Positions 35,176 to 45,439 of a DNA stretch of 64,000 nt are shown piece by piece. This stretch comes from Epidermidibacterium keratini. GTDB taxonomy: Bacteria > Actinomycetota > Actinomycetes > Mycobacteriales > Antricoccaceae. The notes under the pieces are model-generated. The model did no database searches, had not been told where the DNA came from, and worked only from the letters and a program-made list of their open reading frames with translations. Numbering within the stretch: the stretch's first letter is position 1; each line of letters starts with the position of its first letter. Both the position numbers and the translations under genes were made by a program. The stretch covers positions 2,542,001-2,606,000 of the forward strand of contig NZ_CP047156.1 in assembly GCF_009834025.1 (NCBI RefSeq). The letters run 5' to 3'.

Positions 35176-35280
35176 TGCAAGGTAACGAGTTCCAGCATCA
35201 AGCCCTAGCTAGCTGGACGGCTTCCCTCCACCACGGTGGGGTGCCCTAGGTGAATACCTGGCTCGATCGCAAAAGCGATG
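35176..35280 (+). ncRNA. SAM-I/IV-clan riboswitch (SAM-IV type likely)
   Basis: The stretch AAGGTAACGAGTTCCAGC, ATCAAGCCC and GCTGGACGGC is followed by CCTCCACCACGGTGGGGTGC, CCTAGGTGAATACCT. This is the conserved core of the S-adenosylmethionine-sensing SAM-I/IV clan: P2 with ATCAAGCCC, P3 hairpin CCACC/GGTGG, the GGTGGGGTGCC segment, and P1 AGGTA/TACCT. A hairpin right after P1 (ATCGC-AAAA-GCGAT) fits the extra helix of SAM-IV. It lies 280 bp upstream of metQ in the same direction, so it should lower methionine uptake when SAM is high. Confidence 0.85.
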
Positions 35281-35335
35281 CGAGTAAGCGTGGTCTCCGG
35301 CTTCGTCCGGTGACTGGTCAAGTGAGGCAATCACC

Positions 35336-35440
35336 ATGTGTGTGTACGTCGAGGCTGGCTCGTCCACTTTCGATGCTCGAGCAGGGCAAGGCATGTCTTC
35401 GTCCGCGCTCACCAGGTGTTGCTGTCCGCTGACGCGCTGA
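35336..35440 (+). CDS. Putative Cys-rich leader peptide between riboswitch and metQ
   Basis: ATG at 35336 opens a 34-codon frame ending in TGA at 35438-35440. The peptide starts MCVYVEAGSSTFDA and ends LTRCCCPLTR, with three consecutive Cys codons (TGT TGC TGT) at 35417-35425. AGTGAGG lies 8 nt upstream as a possible ribosome binding site. Short frames with runs of Cys codons act as cysteine-responsive attenuators in mycobacteria. The following segment has GCGCAGCG (35462-35469) complementary to CGCTGCGC (35526-35533) just before the metQ ribosome binding site. Real translation is unproven. Confidence 0.45.
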   Translation: MCVYVEAGSSTFDARAGQGMSSSALTRCCCPLTR

Positions 35441-35559
35441 TCCACCCGTAAGTACAGACCCGCGCAGCGTCGACCGCACATCTAAAGCCCCCGCGCTCCA
35501 TCTCCGCGTATCTGCGGACGGTTATCGCTGCGCCCATTTCGACCTGTCAAAGGAAAGTA

Positions 35560-36417
35560 ATGACTCACGCATTGCCCATTCGTCGAATTCTCGCCGTGCT
35601 GGCCGGCGTACTCGTCTCGCTCACCGCGTTGACGGCGTGCGGTTCGGCCGGCGCCGACGAGGGTGGCCCGCTTCGCATTCTCGCGTCCTCCACACCGCAC
35701 GCCGAGATCCTGAAACAAGTGCAGGACTCCGGGCTGCTCGGCGACGTCGAGCTGGAGATCTCTGAGATATCCGGAGACATCGATGCCAACCAGCTGCTGG
35801 AAGCCGGCGATATCGACGCCAACTTCTTCCAGCACGACCCCTACCTGCAGGGCTGGCTCGCCGAGCACAACACCGATGACCTGGTCAACGTCGCCACGGT
35901 CCACGTCGAACCTCTCGGGATCTACTCGCAGAAGGTGAGCTCGCTCGACGACGTGCCCTCCGGTGCGACGGTGGCGCTCTCGAACAACCTGCCGAACTTC
36001 GCACGAGGGCTGTTCTTGCTCCAGGACGCCGGGCTCATCAAGCTCGATGTGCAGCCGACCGACGAGGGCTTGGACTTCAGCCAGGTCACCGAGTCCAACA
36101 TCACCGAGAACCCCAAGAACCTGTCGTTTGTGCAGATTGACCCGGCGCAGCTGCCCAACACGCTGCAGGACGGGCAGATCGACGTCAGCGTGATCAACGG
36201 CAACTACGCACTCGAGGCGGGATTGTCGCCGGCCGACGACGCGCTCGCACTCGAGCCGGCCGAAGATAACCCCTATGCCAACACGTTGACGGTCAAGAAG
36301 GATCTGCAGGACGACCCGCGAGTGAAGGCTCTGGCGAAGGCTCTTGAGTCGCCCGAGATCGCGAAGTGGATCAAGGATCAGTACGCCGGCTCGGTCATCC
36401 CGGTTCACGGAGAGTAG
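35560..36417 (+). CDS. metQ: D-methionine ABC transporter substrate-binding lipoprotein
   Basis: A 285-residue NLPA-family binding protein. Lipoprotein signal 1-27 with lipobox LTAC (Cys27). LRILASSTPHAEILKQVQ begins the mature domain; ISGDIDANQLLEAGDIDANFFQHDPYL carries the FFQHxPYL family motif, and VSVINGNYALEAGLSPADDALALEP the second lobe signature. AAAGGAAAG is 5-7 nt upstream of the ATG. It is the first gene of metQNI and follows the SAM riboswitch and the Cys-rich leader frame, which fixes the ligand as methionine with good confidence. Confidence 0.93.
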   Translation: MTHALPIRRILAVLAGVLVSLTALTACGSAGADEGGPLRILASSTPHAEILKQVQDSGLLGDVELEISEISGDIDANQLLEAGDIDANFFQHDPYLQGWLAEHNTDDLVNVATVHVEPLGIYSQKVSSLDDVPSGATVALSNNLPNFARGLFLLQDAGLIKLDVQPTDEGLDFSQVTESNITENPKNLSFVQIDPAQLPNTLQDGQIDVSVINGNYALEAGLSPADDALALEPAEDNPYANTLTVKKDLQDDPRVKALAKALESPEIAKWIKDQYAGSVIPVHGE

Positions 36418-36423
36418 TCACCG

Positions 36424-37410
36424 ATGATCGATATCGAGCGTCTTTCTAAGACATATCAAGGAAAGTCCGGCACCGTTGCAGCGCTCACCGATGTGACGTT
36501 GCATGTCGAGCCAGGCGAGATCTATGGCATCGTCGGGCGCAGTGGTGCTGGCAAGAGCACACTGCTGCGCCACCTCAACCTGCTTGAGCGACCGACGTCG
36601 GGGACGGTCCGTCTTGATGGACGTGACCTCGGCGAGGTGAGCGCTCAGGAGCTTCGCGCCACGCGTCGCAGCATCGGTGTCGTGTTCCAGCACTTCAACC
36701 TGCTGGGCGCGCGTACGGTGGCCGGCAACGTTGAGTTTCCCCTCGAGATCGCCGGTATATCGAAGAAGCAGCGGCGCGAGCGGGTCACTGAGCTGCTCGG
36801 TCTTGTCGGTCTCACCGACAAGGCGGCGGCGTACCCGTCGCAGCTCTCGGGTGGGCAGAAGCAGCGAGTCGGTATCGCCCGGGCGCTTGCGGCTAACCCG
36901 AAGGTGCTGCTGTGCGACGAGGCGACGAGCGCCCTCGACACCGACACGACCGCACAGATCCTCGAGCTGATCGCCAAGATCAACCGCGAGCTGGGCATCA
37001 CCGTCGTACTCATCACCCACGAGCTTGAAGTGGTACGCCGTATCTGCCACAGTGCAGCGCTGTTGGATGACGGGCGGGTCGTCGAGTCGGGCCGACTGTC
37101 GGACCTGCTGTCGGATCCAGACTCGGCGCTTGCCGAGCGGATCCTGCCGACTGGTCTTGGCGGGCGCGTGCTCGCGGAAGACGAAGCGCTGATCACGCTG
37201 CGCGGCGACGTCGCCGATACCGCGATTCTCTCCGAGCTCTCGCGGGATCTGCACCTGGACGTCGTGCTGCGTGGCGGGGGAATCGAGCACGTGGGTGATA
37301 CCGCCGTCAGCCGGCTGCTGCTGCAGCTGCGTCCGGAGGAAGGTCAGCTCAACCCGCTCAAGACCCGCGAGTATCTCGAGGACCGCGGCGCACAGGTGGT
37401 GCTGGGATGA
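36424..37410 (+). CDS. metN: Methionine ABC transporter ATP-binding protein
   Basis: A 328-residue ATPase. Walker A GRSGAGKST at about 39-47, Q-loop VVFQHFNLL, signature LSGGQKQRVGIARAL, Walker B KVLLCDEATSALD, and H-loop ITHELEVV. Residues about 250-328 form the NIL regulatory domain (LLLQLRPEEGQLNPL), which in MetN binds methionine and inhibits transport (trans-inhibition). It follows metQ by 6 bp and overlaps metI by 4. Confidence 0.95.
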   Translation: MIDIERLSKTYQGKSGTVAALTDVTLHVEPGEIYGIVGRSGAGKSTLLRHLNLLERPTSGTVRLDGRDLGEVSAQELRATRRSIGVVFQHFNLLGARTVAGNVEFPLEIAGISKKQRRERVTELLGLVGLTDKAAAYPSQLSGGQKQRVGIARALAANPKVLLCDEATSALDTDTTAQILELIAKINRELGITVVLITHELEVVRRICHSAALLDDGRVVESGRLSDLLSDPDSALAERILPTGLGGRVLAEDEALITLRGDVADTAILSELSRDLHLDVVLRGGGIEHVGDTAVSRLLLQLRPEEGQLNPLKTREYLEDRGAQVVLG

Positions 37411-38075
37411 ACAAGACGACAATCTCTGAAGCTCTGCCTGAGCTGTGGACGGCATTTGGCGAGACTCTGCTGATGGTGTCGGTCGCGTTTGCGCTGACCG
37501 TCGTACTCGGCGGAGCGCTCGGCGTCCTGCTGCTGCTGACCAGTCCCGGTGGGCTCCTGCAAAACCGCCCCGTCAACGCCGTCCTCGGTGCGATCGTCAA
37601 CCTTGGCCGCTCGCTGCCGTTCTTGATCTTGCTGATTGCTCTGATCCCCGTCACTCGCCTGATCGTGGGCACGGCATTTGGCCCGGAGGCGGCGATCGTG
37701 CCGCTGACGATCGGCTCGATCCCGTTCTTCGGGCGGGTCGTCGAGTCGGCGCTGCGTGAGGTGAGCCCCGGCAAGATCGAGGCGGCCGAGGCGATCGGCG
37801 CGACCCGCAAGCAGATCGTCACCAAGGTGCTGCTTCCCGAGTCGAAGCCGGCCCTGATCGCCGGCGCGACGCTGACCCTCGTGATGCTCATCGGCTTCTC
37901 GACAATGGCCGGCACGATCGGCGGCGGGGGAGTCGGCGACTTCGCCATCCGCTACGGCTACCAACGGTTCAACACACCGGTGCTGCTCACCGCGGTCGTC
38001 GTACTCATCGTGCTTGTGCAGCTCATCCAGTCCATTGGCGACCTCGCCGTACGCCGTCTGCAGCACGTGCGATAA
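37407..38075 (+). CDS. metI: Methionine ABC transporter permease
   Basis: A 222-residue permease with five membrane helices. LWTAFGETLLMVSVAFALTVVLGGALGVLL starts it. The EAA loop is EVSPGKIEAAEAIGATRKQIVTKVLLPESKPAL, and GFSTMAGTIGGGGVGDFAIRYGYQRF is the MetI signature near the C-terminus. Coupled to metN by ATGA overlap. The oxygenase gene follows 23 bp downstream in the same direction. Confidence 0.95.
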   Translation: MNKTTISEALPELWTAFGETLLMVSVAFALTVVLGGALGVLLLLTSPGGLLQNRPVNAVLGAIVNLGRSLPFLILLIALIPVTRLIVGTAFGPEAAIVPLTIGSIPFFGRVVESALREVSPGKIEAAEAIGATRKQIVTKVLLPESKPALIAGATLTLVMLIGFSTMAGTIGGGGVGDFAIRYGYQRFNTPVLLTAVVVLIVLVQLIQSIGDLAVRRLQHVR

Positions 38076-42315: not shown

Positions 42316-42337
42316 CCGGCACCGTCGCGTTAGACTC

Positions 42338-42485
42338 GTCTGCGCGTTCGGTACGGCGCCACCACCGTGGCGCTGTCGCAAGAGGGAATCCGGTGTGAAT
42401 CCGGAGCTGGCCCGCAGCGGTATGAGGAAACGAAACCTGCAGCACGGCACTGGGGAGACCTGGGAAGCCGCGGGGAGTAGATGCA
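42338..42485 (+). ncRNA. Cobalamin riboswitch
   Basis: The core is clear: GTCGCAAGAGGGAATCCGG, TGTGAATCCGGAGCTGGCCC, GCAGCGGTATGAGG and, after a short hairpin, GCACTGGGGAGACCTGGGAAG. These match the conserved segments (AGGGAAxxxGGTG, GCxGCCCxCGCxACTG, B12-box-like CACTGGG...CTGGGAAG) of the cobalamin class. It precedes an ABC binding-protein/permease/ATPase operon, so it should turn that operon down when corrinoid is plentiful. Confidence 0.92.
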
Positions 42486-42603
42486 CGACGTGACTGTCCT
42501 TGAGCCCGAAGACCTGCCGAAGGCAAGTGCGCACCCGCGCACGTCGGCGGCTTCGAGGACCAAGCCGCGCGTCCTGCCGCAGTCGTCGGCGGCCCCGCGC
42601 TTC

Positions 42604-42649: not shown

Positions 42650-43624
42650 ATGAGGCATCGTCATCGAATGGCCGGCGCGCTGTGCGCGAGCGCCTTCGCT
42701 CTGAGCGCCTGCGAGTCTACCGCAGACTCCGGCAGACCCGCTGGGTCCTCGGATTCCGCCTTGGCGAACTGCGGCGTTGACGTCGCAGTCGACACGCCGC
42801 CGAAGGCAGCGGTCACCGTCAACCAGGCGGCGACCGAGATCATGCTCAGCCTCGGTCTTGCTGATGACATGGCCGGCACGGCGTACCTCGACGACGAGGT
42901 ATCGCCGGCGCTGAAGGCGGACTATGACACGGTCCCGGTGCTGGCGCCGGAGTACCCCACGCAGGAGACCCTGCTGGAGGCCGAGCCGGATTTCGTCTAC
43001 GCGTCGTACTCCAGCGCCTTCGACGACAGTGCTCTCGGACCCCGCGACGACCTGGCAGACCTGACGATCGACACCTATCTCTCGCCAGTCGCCTGCCCGC
43101 AGAAGTCGCAGCGTTTGGCGCAGGACTTCGATGCCGTCTATCAGGAGATCATTGATATCGGTGCGATCTTCGGGGTGAGCGAGCGGGCGCAGTCGCTGGT
43201 CGACCAGCTCAAGTCGACGGTCGCGCAGTCGATGGCGGCGGACGCCGGAGGCGGGCGTACGGCGCTGCTGTGGGACAGCGGCATTCAGACACCCTCCGTT
43301 GCCTCCGGGTCGGGGATGGGCGGCTATCTGCTCGAGTCGGCTGGGCTGCAGAACGTCTTCGGTGAAGACACCGGTGACACCTACGTGAGCACCAGCTGGG
43401 AGGCGATCGTCGACACCGACCCAGATGTGATCGTGCTCGTCGACGCGGAGTGGGACCCAGCGACAGACAAGATCGCATTCCTGCAGAGCGATCCCGCCAC
43501 AGCGCAGCTCAGCGCGGTGAAGAACAACGCGTTCGTGACGCTACCGTTTGTCGAGACGACGGTAGGCCTACGTGCGGTCGATGGACTCGCCGCGCTCGAG
43601 CAGCAACTCGCCGCAGATGGCTGA
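42650..43624 (+). CDS. ABC transporter substrate-binding lipoprotein, probably for cobalamin (BtuF-like)
   Basis: A 324-residue class III binding protein. Lipoprotein signal 1-21 with lipobox LSAC (Cys21 of ALSACES). VTVNQAATEIMLSLGLADDMAGTAYLDDEVSPAL and LLEAEPDFVYASYSSAFDDSALG form lobe 1; STSWEAIVDTDPDVIVLVDAEWDPATDKIAFLQSDPATAQLSAVKNNAFVTLPFVETTVG forms lobe 2. Actinobacterial relatives have been named putative F420-0-binding proteins; the cobalamin riboswitch upstream argues for a corrinoid instead. Its stop overlaps the permease start by 8 bases. Confidence 0.85.
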   Translation: MRHRHRMAGALCASAFALSACESTADSGRPAGSSDSALANCGVDVAVDTPPKAAVTVNQAATEIMLSLGLADDMAGTAYLDDEVSPALKADYDTVPVLAPEYPTQETLLEAEPDFVYASYSSAFDDSALGPRDDLADLTIDTYLSPVACPQKSQRLAQDFDAVYQEIIDIGAIFGVSERAQSLVDQLKSTVAQSMAADAGGGRTALLWDSGIQTPSVASGSGMGGYLLESAGLQNVFGEDTGDTYVSTSWEAIVDTDPDVIVLVDAEWDPATDKIAFLQSDPATAQLSAVKNNAFVTLPFVETTVGLRAVDGLAALEQQLAADG

Positions 43625-44653: not shown

Positions 44654-45439
44654 ATGCGTTTGCGGATCGTAGATATGTCCGTGAAGTACGGCGCCGTCGA
44701 GGTGTTGCGCGATGTGTCGCTTGAGGTGCCGAGCGGGTCCTTTACCGCGCTGATCGGGCCCAACGGGTCGGGTAAGTCGACGTTGCTGCACCAGATCGCC
44801 GAGCCGTCGCGCCGGGCCACGTCGAGGATTCAGCTCGCCGACTTGGACCTATCTCGGCTGACTGCGCGTGAGCGGGCGCGCCGTGTGGCGTTCGTTGAGC
44901 AGGAGTCGGTGAGCGGGCATGACGTCACGGTGCGTGACGTCATCGAGCTCGGACGCACACCGTGGCGGCGAGGCCTTCACTTCGAGCCGGTTGCGGACCC
45001 GGTTGTCGACGATGCGGCGCGCACCGCGGGGGTCGACGACCTGCTCGACCGCCCGTGGCAGGACCTTTCCGGCGGCGAGCGGCAGCGCGCCCATCTCGCG
45101 CGGGCGCTTGCTCAGGAGCCCACGCTGCTCGTGCTCGACGAGCCAACGAACCACCTCGACGTGCGGCACCAGATCGACTTCCTGGACCGGGTACGCCGCC
45201 TGCCGATGACGGTGTTCGCCGCGATGCACGACCTCGCGCTCGTCGGCGCGTTTTGCGATCACGTCGTCGTACTGCACGAGGGCCAGGTCGCCGCGGCGGG
45301 ACGGACCGCCGATGTCCTGACATCGCAGCTGATTCACGAGGTCTTTGGCGTGGCGGCGACCGTGCGCTCGGTAGGTGACGCTGTGCGCATTGAGGTTGAC
45401 TTCCGGGCGATGAATGCGGTCGAGTCGCCAGTTCGTTAG
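44654..45439 (+). CDS. ABC transporter ATP-binding protein (BtuD/FecE-like)
   Basis: A 261-residue ATPase. Walker A is GPNGSGKST near residues 36-44, Q-loop AFVEQESVSGHDVTVRDVIELGR, signature LSGGERQRAHLARALAQ, Walker B LLVLDEPTNHLD, H-loop AMHDLALV. DVIELGRTPWRRG is typical of ATPases for iron-siderophore and B12 importers. It starts 2 bp after the permease stop. Its stop overlaps that of the convergent GAP-family gene by 4 bp. Confidence 0.94.
   Translation: MRLRIVDMSVKYGAVEVLRDVSLEVPSGSFTALIGPNGSGKSTLLHQIAEPSRRATSRIQLADLDLSRLTARERARRVAFVEQESVSGHDVTVRDVIELGRTPWRRGLHFEPVADPVVDDAARTAGVDDLLDRPWQDLSGGERQRAHLARALAQEPTLLVLDEPTNHLDVRHQIDFLDRVRRLPMTVFAAMHDLALVGAFCDHVVVLHEGQVAAAGRTADVLTSQLIHEVFGVAATVRSVGDAVRIEVDFRAMNAVESPVR

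Follow-up and report, generated by a model that had tools for sequence, protein, structure and literature searches.

In poly-Cys attenuator leaders, a stalled ribosome exposes the ribosome binding site of the gene that follows. The title of Canestrari et al. 2020 names the mycobacterial poly-Cys leader ORFs leaderless. The metQ leader analysed here would share their working principle, a parallel already drawn in the first-pass annotation of this DNA, and differs in how translation would start: its upstream ORF (uORF) follows a riboswitch aptamer and has its own Shine–Dalgarno motif 5′ of the ATG. The leaders of mycobacterial cys operons (Seliverstov 2005, PMC1262725) likewise contain a short ORF in which several successive Cys codons lie close to the stop, located 5′ of sulfur genes, and, like the metQ leader, have no conserved terminator hairpin in the available part of that text. 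The same part raises Rho-dependent termination, as in tna, for these leaders (Seliverstov et al., PMC1262725), and mentions no riboswitch, whereas the metQ uORF has one upstream.

The window, that is, the whole stretch of 64,000 nucleotides that was analysed, belongs to a source genome of 4.02 Mb in one contig. A SAM-IV-type aptamer, the uORF and the genes metQ, metN and metI follow one another on the same strand (Table 1), which agrees with the first-pass placement of the frame between a SAM riboswitch and metQ. In the NCBIfam search, metQ scored 149.3 bits against PRK11063.1, under the curated cut-off of 374. A scan of the whole window at gathering scores returned one Rfam element in the metQ leader, and thus no second ligand-binding RNA domain of a tandem riboswitch. 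An ordinary cobalamin riboswitch (42332–42535, 103.3 bits) is located elsewhere in the window, ahead of genes for an apparent ABC importer, which were assigned by reading translations, with no family search (binding protein at 42650, permease at 43572 and ATPase at 44654).

Table 1. Features of the metQ leader and operon, in window positions
Feature	Positions	Strand	Basis
SAM-IV-type aptamer (RF00634), variant pocket	35181..35296	+	cmscan 92.6 bits, gathering score 38
PK1 strand CCUAG	35204..35208	+	pairs with 35246–35250 in both metQ aptamers
UU for near-invariant AA of GGCAACC, P3 internal loop	35222..35223	+	aptamer comparison
PK2 strand ACCACG	35230..35235	+	pairs with 35289–35294
PK1 partner strand CUAGG	35246..35250	+	pair test
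PK2 partner strand CGUGGU	35289..35294	+	pair test
Candidate expression platform	35293..35335	+	by eye in window; same place in L043
Shine–Dalgarno-like GAGG of uORF	35324..35327	+	sequence; scored as 4-nt match
uORF / leader peptide, 34 aa	35336..35440	+	open reading frame; start +40 after aptamer
Alternative in-frame start ATG, 15-aa MSSSALTRCCCPLTR	35393..35395	+	sequence
Cys-Cys-Cys codons UGU UGC UGU	35417..35425	+	sequence
C-rich, G-poor stretch after uORF stop, candidate Rho loading region	35441..35518	+	C/G 1.94
metQ Shine–Dalgarno region AAAGGAAAG	35549..35557	+	sequence, folding
metQ, methionine-binding lipoprotein	35560..36417	+	NCBIfam PRK11063.1 E 1.3e-43, Pfam Lipoprotein_9 E 1.2e-71
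metN, ATPase with NIL domain	36424..37410	+	NCBIfam ABC_MetN top match, under cut-off; Pfam ABC_tran + NIL
metI, permease	37407..38075	+	NCBIfam MetI PRK10782.1 top match, 205.7 bits vs cut-off 212; Pfam BPD_transp_1

The uORF encodes the peptide MCVYVEAGSSTFDARAGQGMSSSALTRCCCPLTR; its extent and its end, TRCCCPLTR, are exactly those given in the first-pass annotation, and the ribosome binding site considered plausible there is the GAGG, 8 nt 5′ of the ATG. Two more overlapping frames use the same Shine–Dalgarno motif, and these or the shorter in-frame start are possible alternative translated frames. The peptide matched no NCBIfam family (one search with E up to 10, another with E up to 0.01) and no Pfam family. 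Three successive Cys residues are present in 4 of the 389 ORFs of 20–60 residues in the window, and the Cys run of the metQ uORF, taken alone, is not beyond chance. By context and conservation it does exceed chance, because it is conserved in the closest relative of the locus and recurs after SAM-IV aptamers.

MetQ matches were detected in 142 of the 397 genomes of the order, and a close one in just one other genome (G002, 73% identical; next best, 49%), which belongs to the same family as the source genome and to another genus. Its locus, L043, with a MetQ 71–73% identical to that of the window, has the same order of parts: a SAM-IV aptamer, a frame starting at +37, MEISFRGCNVPTSCASRMCCCR, with the end RMCCCR directly before the stop, and metQ. 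The aptamers are identical at 86 of 116 positions and, by eye, the approximately 25 nt directly 3′ of them look alike; outside the aptamer, the two leaders share 44% identity, which is the level of shuffled sequences (39–50%, ten mononucleotide shuffles). Conservation of the Cys run, the check proposed in the first-pass annotation, is thus seen in one close MetQ relative with a leader otherwise at shuffled-level identity. The Cys codons of L043 are UGC UGU UGU, and the two frames end in UGU UGC UGU C-CGC UGA (window) and UGC UGU UGU CGC UGA (L043), such that the CCCPLTR of the window may have arisen from an older CCCR terminus by insertion of a single C; a global leader alignment does not place the two Cys ends opposite each other. 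The Shine–Dalgarno match of the L043 uORF is just 3 nt in our own scoring, under the threshold of 4, and this uORF is therefore not among the 32 Shine–Dalgarno-led uORFs described below. Two metQ loci with SAM-IV and a Cys uORF were found in total, the comparison of leaders by way of MetQ being confined to the close match; a profile search of the genome contigs with the MetQ alignment returned nothing.

The pairing of aptamer and uORF was followed in a census of SAM-IV loci, comprising 94 places in 34 of 61 genomes, source genome included, all of which were examined. Leaders were classed as long where over 95 nt separated the aptamer from the downstream gene start or this start was not assigned (42 census loci), gene starts being set by a heuristic that extends some genes too far upstream (for example, L031–L033, L134 and L138). 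Long leaders were taken to at least 160 nt, and a uORF was defined by a Shine–Dalgarno match of at least 4 nt and a start at +10 to +60. A Shine–Dalgarno-led uORF is present in 32 of the 42 long leaders, and 30 have a Cys within the last 12 uORF residues, in loci that come from related genomes and are thus not independent. The corresponding numbers are 3.6 (mean; maximum, 10) and 1.2 (maximum, 4) of 42 in 400 dinucleotide shuffles, and 6 and 2 on the antisense strand. At the uORF ends, Cys is enriched more strongly than any other residue (12.3% versus 3.4%, z 2.6), and the motif TGYTGYTGY occurs in five of the 42 long leaders in sense and in none in antisense (200 shuffles: mean 0.37, maximum 3).

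Judged from these sequences, the succession of a riboswitch and a cysteine-codon leader recurs across the genomes analysed, and because related bacteria repeat the pairing, the metQ leader looks like a real two-signal sulfur switch. The earlier idea of one transcript sensing both SAM and charged tRNA-Cys gains from this recurrence and from the Cys run kept in L043; translation of the frame and its response to cysteine are predictions, and SAM sensing by an aptamer with UU in the pocket is not established. Extra loci (L056–L077 and L152–L167), which were best-scoring or hand-picked, are outside the census counts; they supply 38 extra aptamers for the pocket comparison, and six of them are among the 38 uORFs used for the codon listing and the C/G test. 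The uORFs for these two analyses, for the start distances and for the NF042934 scan were picked by hand. L032, which hardly differs from L031, does not enter the codon listing, start distances or C/G test; its peptide was kept in the NF042934 set.

Leader peptides after SAM-IV are of two kinds. Kind A peptides read RRHVDLxRVxSALC or similar, which is the type of the putative leader peptide family NF042934: 29 of 37 picked uORFs were long enough for a scan with this family (poly-Cys uORFs of fewer than 20 residues are too short), and 21 of the 29 matched at E up to 0.01. The genes behind kind A leaders that were checked encode ABC permeases (L003 and L153), luciferase-like monooxygenases (L042 and L127), an aminotransferase (L118) and a cysteine dioxygenase (L128). 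The metQ uORF did not match NF042934, nor any other family at E up to 10. It is, with L043, of kind B, in which a short frame holds successive Cys residues, frequently as (R)MCCCR. This kind is also located ahead of an MFS gene (L039, MSRCCC) and, in other families, ahead of metY-like genes (L060, MCCCRR; L064, MSRRMCCCRS; L131, MCCCCLSLAHR; L158, MRTMMCCCS), for which Pfam Cys_Met_Meta_PP was checked in L060 and L064 only. Cys pairs are found in the uORFs of L024, L077, L109 and L112. A pattern scan gave four places, at one of which Rfam detects SAM-IV: L168, in the metagenome-assembled genome (MAG) Actinomycetales bacterium REEB460, where the aptamer (99.6 bits) is followed by MRCCCRMKRG and a metY-like start. 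The other three, at which Rfam detects no SAM-IV, were dropped as chance.

Several single loci show how this arrangement varies. The source genome has a second SAM-IV and Cys-leader transcript, L003, with the aptamer at 979895–980006 followed by the leader peptide CRRHVDLLRVSSALC (29.3 bits with NF042934, above the curated cut-off of 27) and an ABC permease gene. In L128, the uORF after SAM-IV ends in SSLCCC and precedes the cysteine dioxygenase gene, and a catabolic gene behind an apparent Cys leader would be expected to follow reversed logic. L006 of the source genome, an apparent orthologue of L039 with MFS transporter genes, has a SAM-IV aptamer with the gene start at +36 and no leader. 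The two are apparently a natural pair of uORF gain or loss, which suggests that the uORF can come and go. In L037, SAM-IV lies ahead of a metY-like gene with a leader longer than that of L002 and containing the six-codon MSTLCR with a 4-nt Shine–Dalgarno match, possibly a young Cys leader.

The window aptamer exceeds the SAM-IV gathering score by a wide margin (Table 1), and all 40 tested pairs in P1, P2, P3, P5 and the two pseudoknots are standard (29/29 nested, 5/5 PK1 and 6/6 PK2). In the window register, 36 of the 40 pairs are standard in L043, and the four misfits are all in upper P5, which by eye appears to pair in a shifted register. Between the two aptamers, one PK2 pair, from G–C to U–A, and two lower-P5 pairs are changed on both sides; compared by eye with the majority of SAM-IV copies, the metQ aptamers differ in both partners of two PK1 pairs and of the last pair of P1.

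Both metQ aptamers read GGCUUCC and lack the AA of the SAM-IV motif GGCAACC. Among the census aptamers, AA is present in 91 of 94, UU in two (the window copy, L005, and L043) and AU in one (L035); AA is present in all 38 extra aptamers, and hence in 129 of the 132 examined. An exact 40-nt core pattern with UU occurs in two of the 397 genomes searched in the order, neither of them new to this analysis, and a stricter one in one of 394 genomes of the class, exact patterns being such that UU aptamers with other spacing would be missed. We take the AA site to be equivalent to A45/A46 of SAM-I. Residues 44–47 of SAM-I are within 5 Å of SAM, and the SAM-IV equivalents given in the accessible portion of the cryo-EM paper are 2–4, 7–8, 63–65 and 77, with none named for SAM-I 44–47 (PMC6890682), so the equation of the AA/UU site with 44–47 is our own. 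By this analogy, the UU site is probably at the SAM pocket, and since it replaces a near-invariant AA there, SAM sensing by the metQ aptamer is not to be assumed. The aptamer could be a variant sensor, could still sense SAM in spite of UU, or could have been retained as a scaffold.

The uORFs start at a median of +34 after the aptamer (n = 32, hand-picked), and the genes of loci without a uORF, with starts chosen by best Shine–Dalgarno match, at a median of +40 (n = 50); therefore, the uORF sits about where the expression platform normally acts. By eye, the candidate platform of the window contains a hairpin, GUC-U-CCGG/CCGG-U-GAC (35293–35300 with 35307–35314), and a competing candidate pairing of GGUGA (35309–35313) with UCACC (35331–35335), beside the uORF AUG. 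L043 keeps similar elements by eye, and the first hairpin is part of the lowest-energy fold of L043 and not of that of the window. Masking of the PK2 tail, as a crude stand-in for the ligand-bound state, produced no consistent change in the openness of the first start codon (greater in the free state at 7 and in the bound state at 8 of 32 uORF loci; 11 and 8, respectively, of 50 gene loci), so the case for gating of the uORF by the aptamer is one of position only. The folding stability of the entire metQ leader is unremarkable (z −1.18).

Downstream of the uORF, static folding of the window gave an openness of 0.46 for the metQ Shine–Dalgarno region both with no ribosome and in all three stalled states, which were modelled by a ribosome footprint covering the Cys codons; in L043, it was 0.23 without a ribosome and 0.24 to 0.33 with one, a gain of at most 0.10. 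An intrinsic terminator was rejected as the output, a simple scan having found none in the metQ leader. Pairing of the Cys codons with downstream RNA was also rejected: a 9-bp candidate is visible by eye (35421–35429 with 35514–35522) and has no counterpart, by eye, in L043. The 78 nt after the uORF stops are C-rich, with a median C/G of 1.69 (38 loci, six from outside the census) compared with 1.08 for the RNA ahead of the stops and 1.14 for gene bodies. A C/G of at least 1.5 is reached by 27 of 38 post-stop stretches, versus 15% of 1850 gene-body and 4 of 38 pre-stop stretches. Against these controls, the C-rich RNA hints at Rho, and its position behind Cys codons near the stop hints at a tna-like scheme, with a stalled ribosome shielding the Rho site.

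We lean towards a two-input sulfur switch in series, in which an aptamer is followed by a cysteine-reading uORF. The SAM-IV-type aptamer would control translation initiation of the uORF, as its position and the candidate pairings suggest. A ribosome on the uORF would then test charged tRNA-Cys at the three Cys codons near the end, a step proposed from codon conservation and the known poly-Cys leaders. A stall at these codons would keep the following RNA open or shield the C-rich Rho-loading region, allowing metQNI to be made; completion of the uORF by the ribosome, or its closure by the riboswitch, would keep metQNI low. The predicted logic is methionine import only when the aptamer ligand (SAM or, given the altered pocket, a relative) and cysteine are both scarce.

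The same parts are open to another reading, in which the Cys attenuator acts and the metQ aptamer no longer senses SAM, its UU pocket binding another small molecule or nothing and the RNA being kept as a scaffold that positions the uORF. This is a serious contender, if one that we stop short of calling probable. It gains from the confinement of UU to the two metQ aptamers among the 132 examined, from the rarity of the UU core patterns, from a fold kept despite UU and from SAM-I variants with changes in J1/2 and the P3 internal loop that, in the part consulted of PMC10853860, reject SAM and sense spermidine. It is weakened by a sulfur gene context that is the same as at other SAM-IV loci, and by its basis in two sequences of one family; we also found no mutational data for these two SAM-IV positions, and the portion of PMC6890682 cited above equates no SAM-IV residues with SAM-I 44–47. 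The fully combined form, a SAM-IV variant with a rebuilt pocket and a non-SAM ligand in series with a ribosome-read cysteine sensor as a two-signal gate for methionine import, we regard as rather unlikely.

Translation of the uORF could also serve just to keep Rho off or to couple translation, with Cys codons that sense nothing special. The C-rich RNA after the uORF stops would fit this, as would the riboswitch-linked uORFs of Mycobacterium tuberculosis, which according to the sections available of PMC11260477 and PMC12810186 act through translation coupling or Rho; the prominence of Cys at uORF ends and the survival of precisely the Cys run in the metQ pair argue against it and make it improbable. 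We consider it more improbable still that the frame is not a gene and the riboswitch acts alone, as might be said of a peptide with no family match, a Cys run of ordinary frequency in the window and a Shine–Dalgarno motif shared with two other frames; the position of the uORF, its conservation in L043 and its recurrence after SAM-IV oppose this explanation.

If the two-input reading is true, one transcript reads two sulfur pools in sequence, using sensors that differ in kind, one an aptamer and the other a translating ribosome. Most of the long SAM-IV leaders examined have the arrangement by the uORF test (30 of 42), and it may represent a widespread mode of control in this order that uORFs of such small size make easy to miss. 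With two shared base changes in a known pocket, the metQ pair is a defined case for how SAM-type riboswitches change specificity.

The first-pass annotation knew of no description of such a tandem design. Our searches agree as far as they reach: no SAM-IV aptamer followed by a Cys leader peptide was found in the literature searched, including the accessible parts of PMC8079986 and PMC3890552, a coverage that mostly omits subscription journals and cannot prove that none has been described. Each component or a counterpart has precedent, as poly-Cys leaders, riboswitch-linked uORFs or SAM/T-box tandems, and the joining of SAM-IV with a Cys leader peptide is the new part in so far as our searches found none. 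The remaining known systems each share some features with the metQ leader. In the part of PMC8079986 available, the metL leader of Streptomyces lividans metNIQ has Cys and Met codons (peptide end ...ARCMCRRMCAF) ahead of the same kind of transporter operon; it differs in being described as methionine-dependent and leaderless, and SAM-IV is listed there before another gene only. The uORFC-8-2 motif before cysS in Rhodobacterales has two tandem Cys codons and is likewise read as a ribosome-mediated attenuator, but with an intrinsic terminator, in another phylum and, in the portion seen of PMC8632094, with no riboswitch mentioned. The M. tuberculosis uORFs at the B12 (PMC11260477) and Mbox (PMC12810186) riboswitches also share their leader with a translated uORF; the sections available describe no codons that sense an amino acid, and the words 'cysteine' and 'SAM-IV' do not occur in the main texts. 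The spermidine riboswitch (PMC10853860) resembles the metQ aptamer in keeping a SAM-type fold with changed pocket bases; according to the part consulted, it is SAM-I rather than SAM-IV, precedes other genes and has a demonstrated ligand, whereas the metQ ligand is a candidate only. Tandem SAM-I/T-box(Met) leaders, of which the consulted portion of PMC9481103 gives nine examples, read SAM and tRNA charging, as proposed for the metQ leader. There an RNA element does the reading of the tRNA (the strings 'leader peptide', 'uORF' and 'attenuat' do not occur in that text), whereas in the metQ leader this would be done by a ribosome on a leader peptide.
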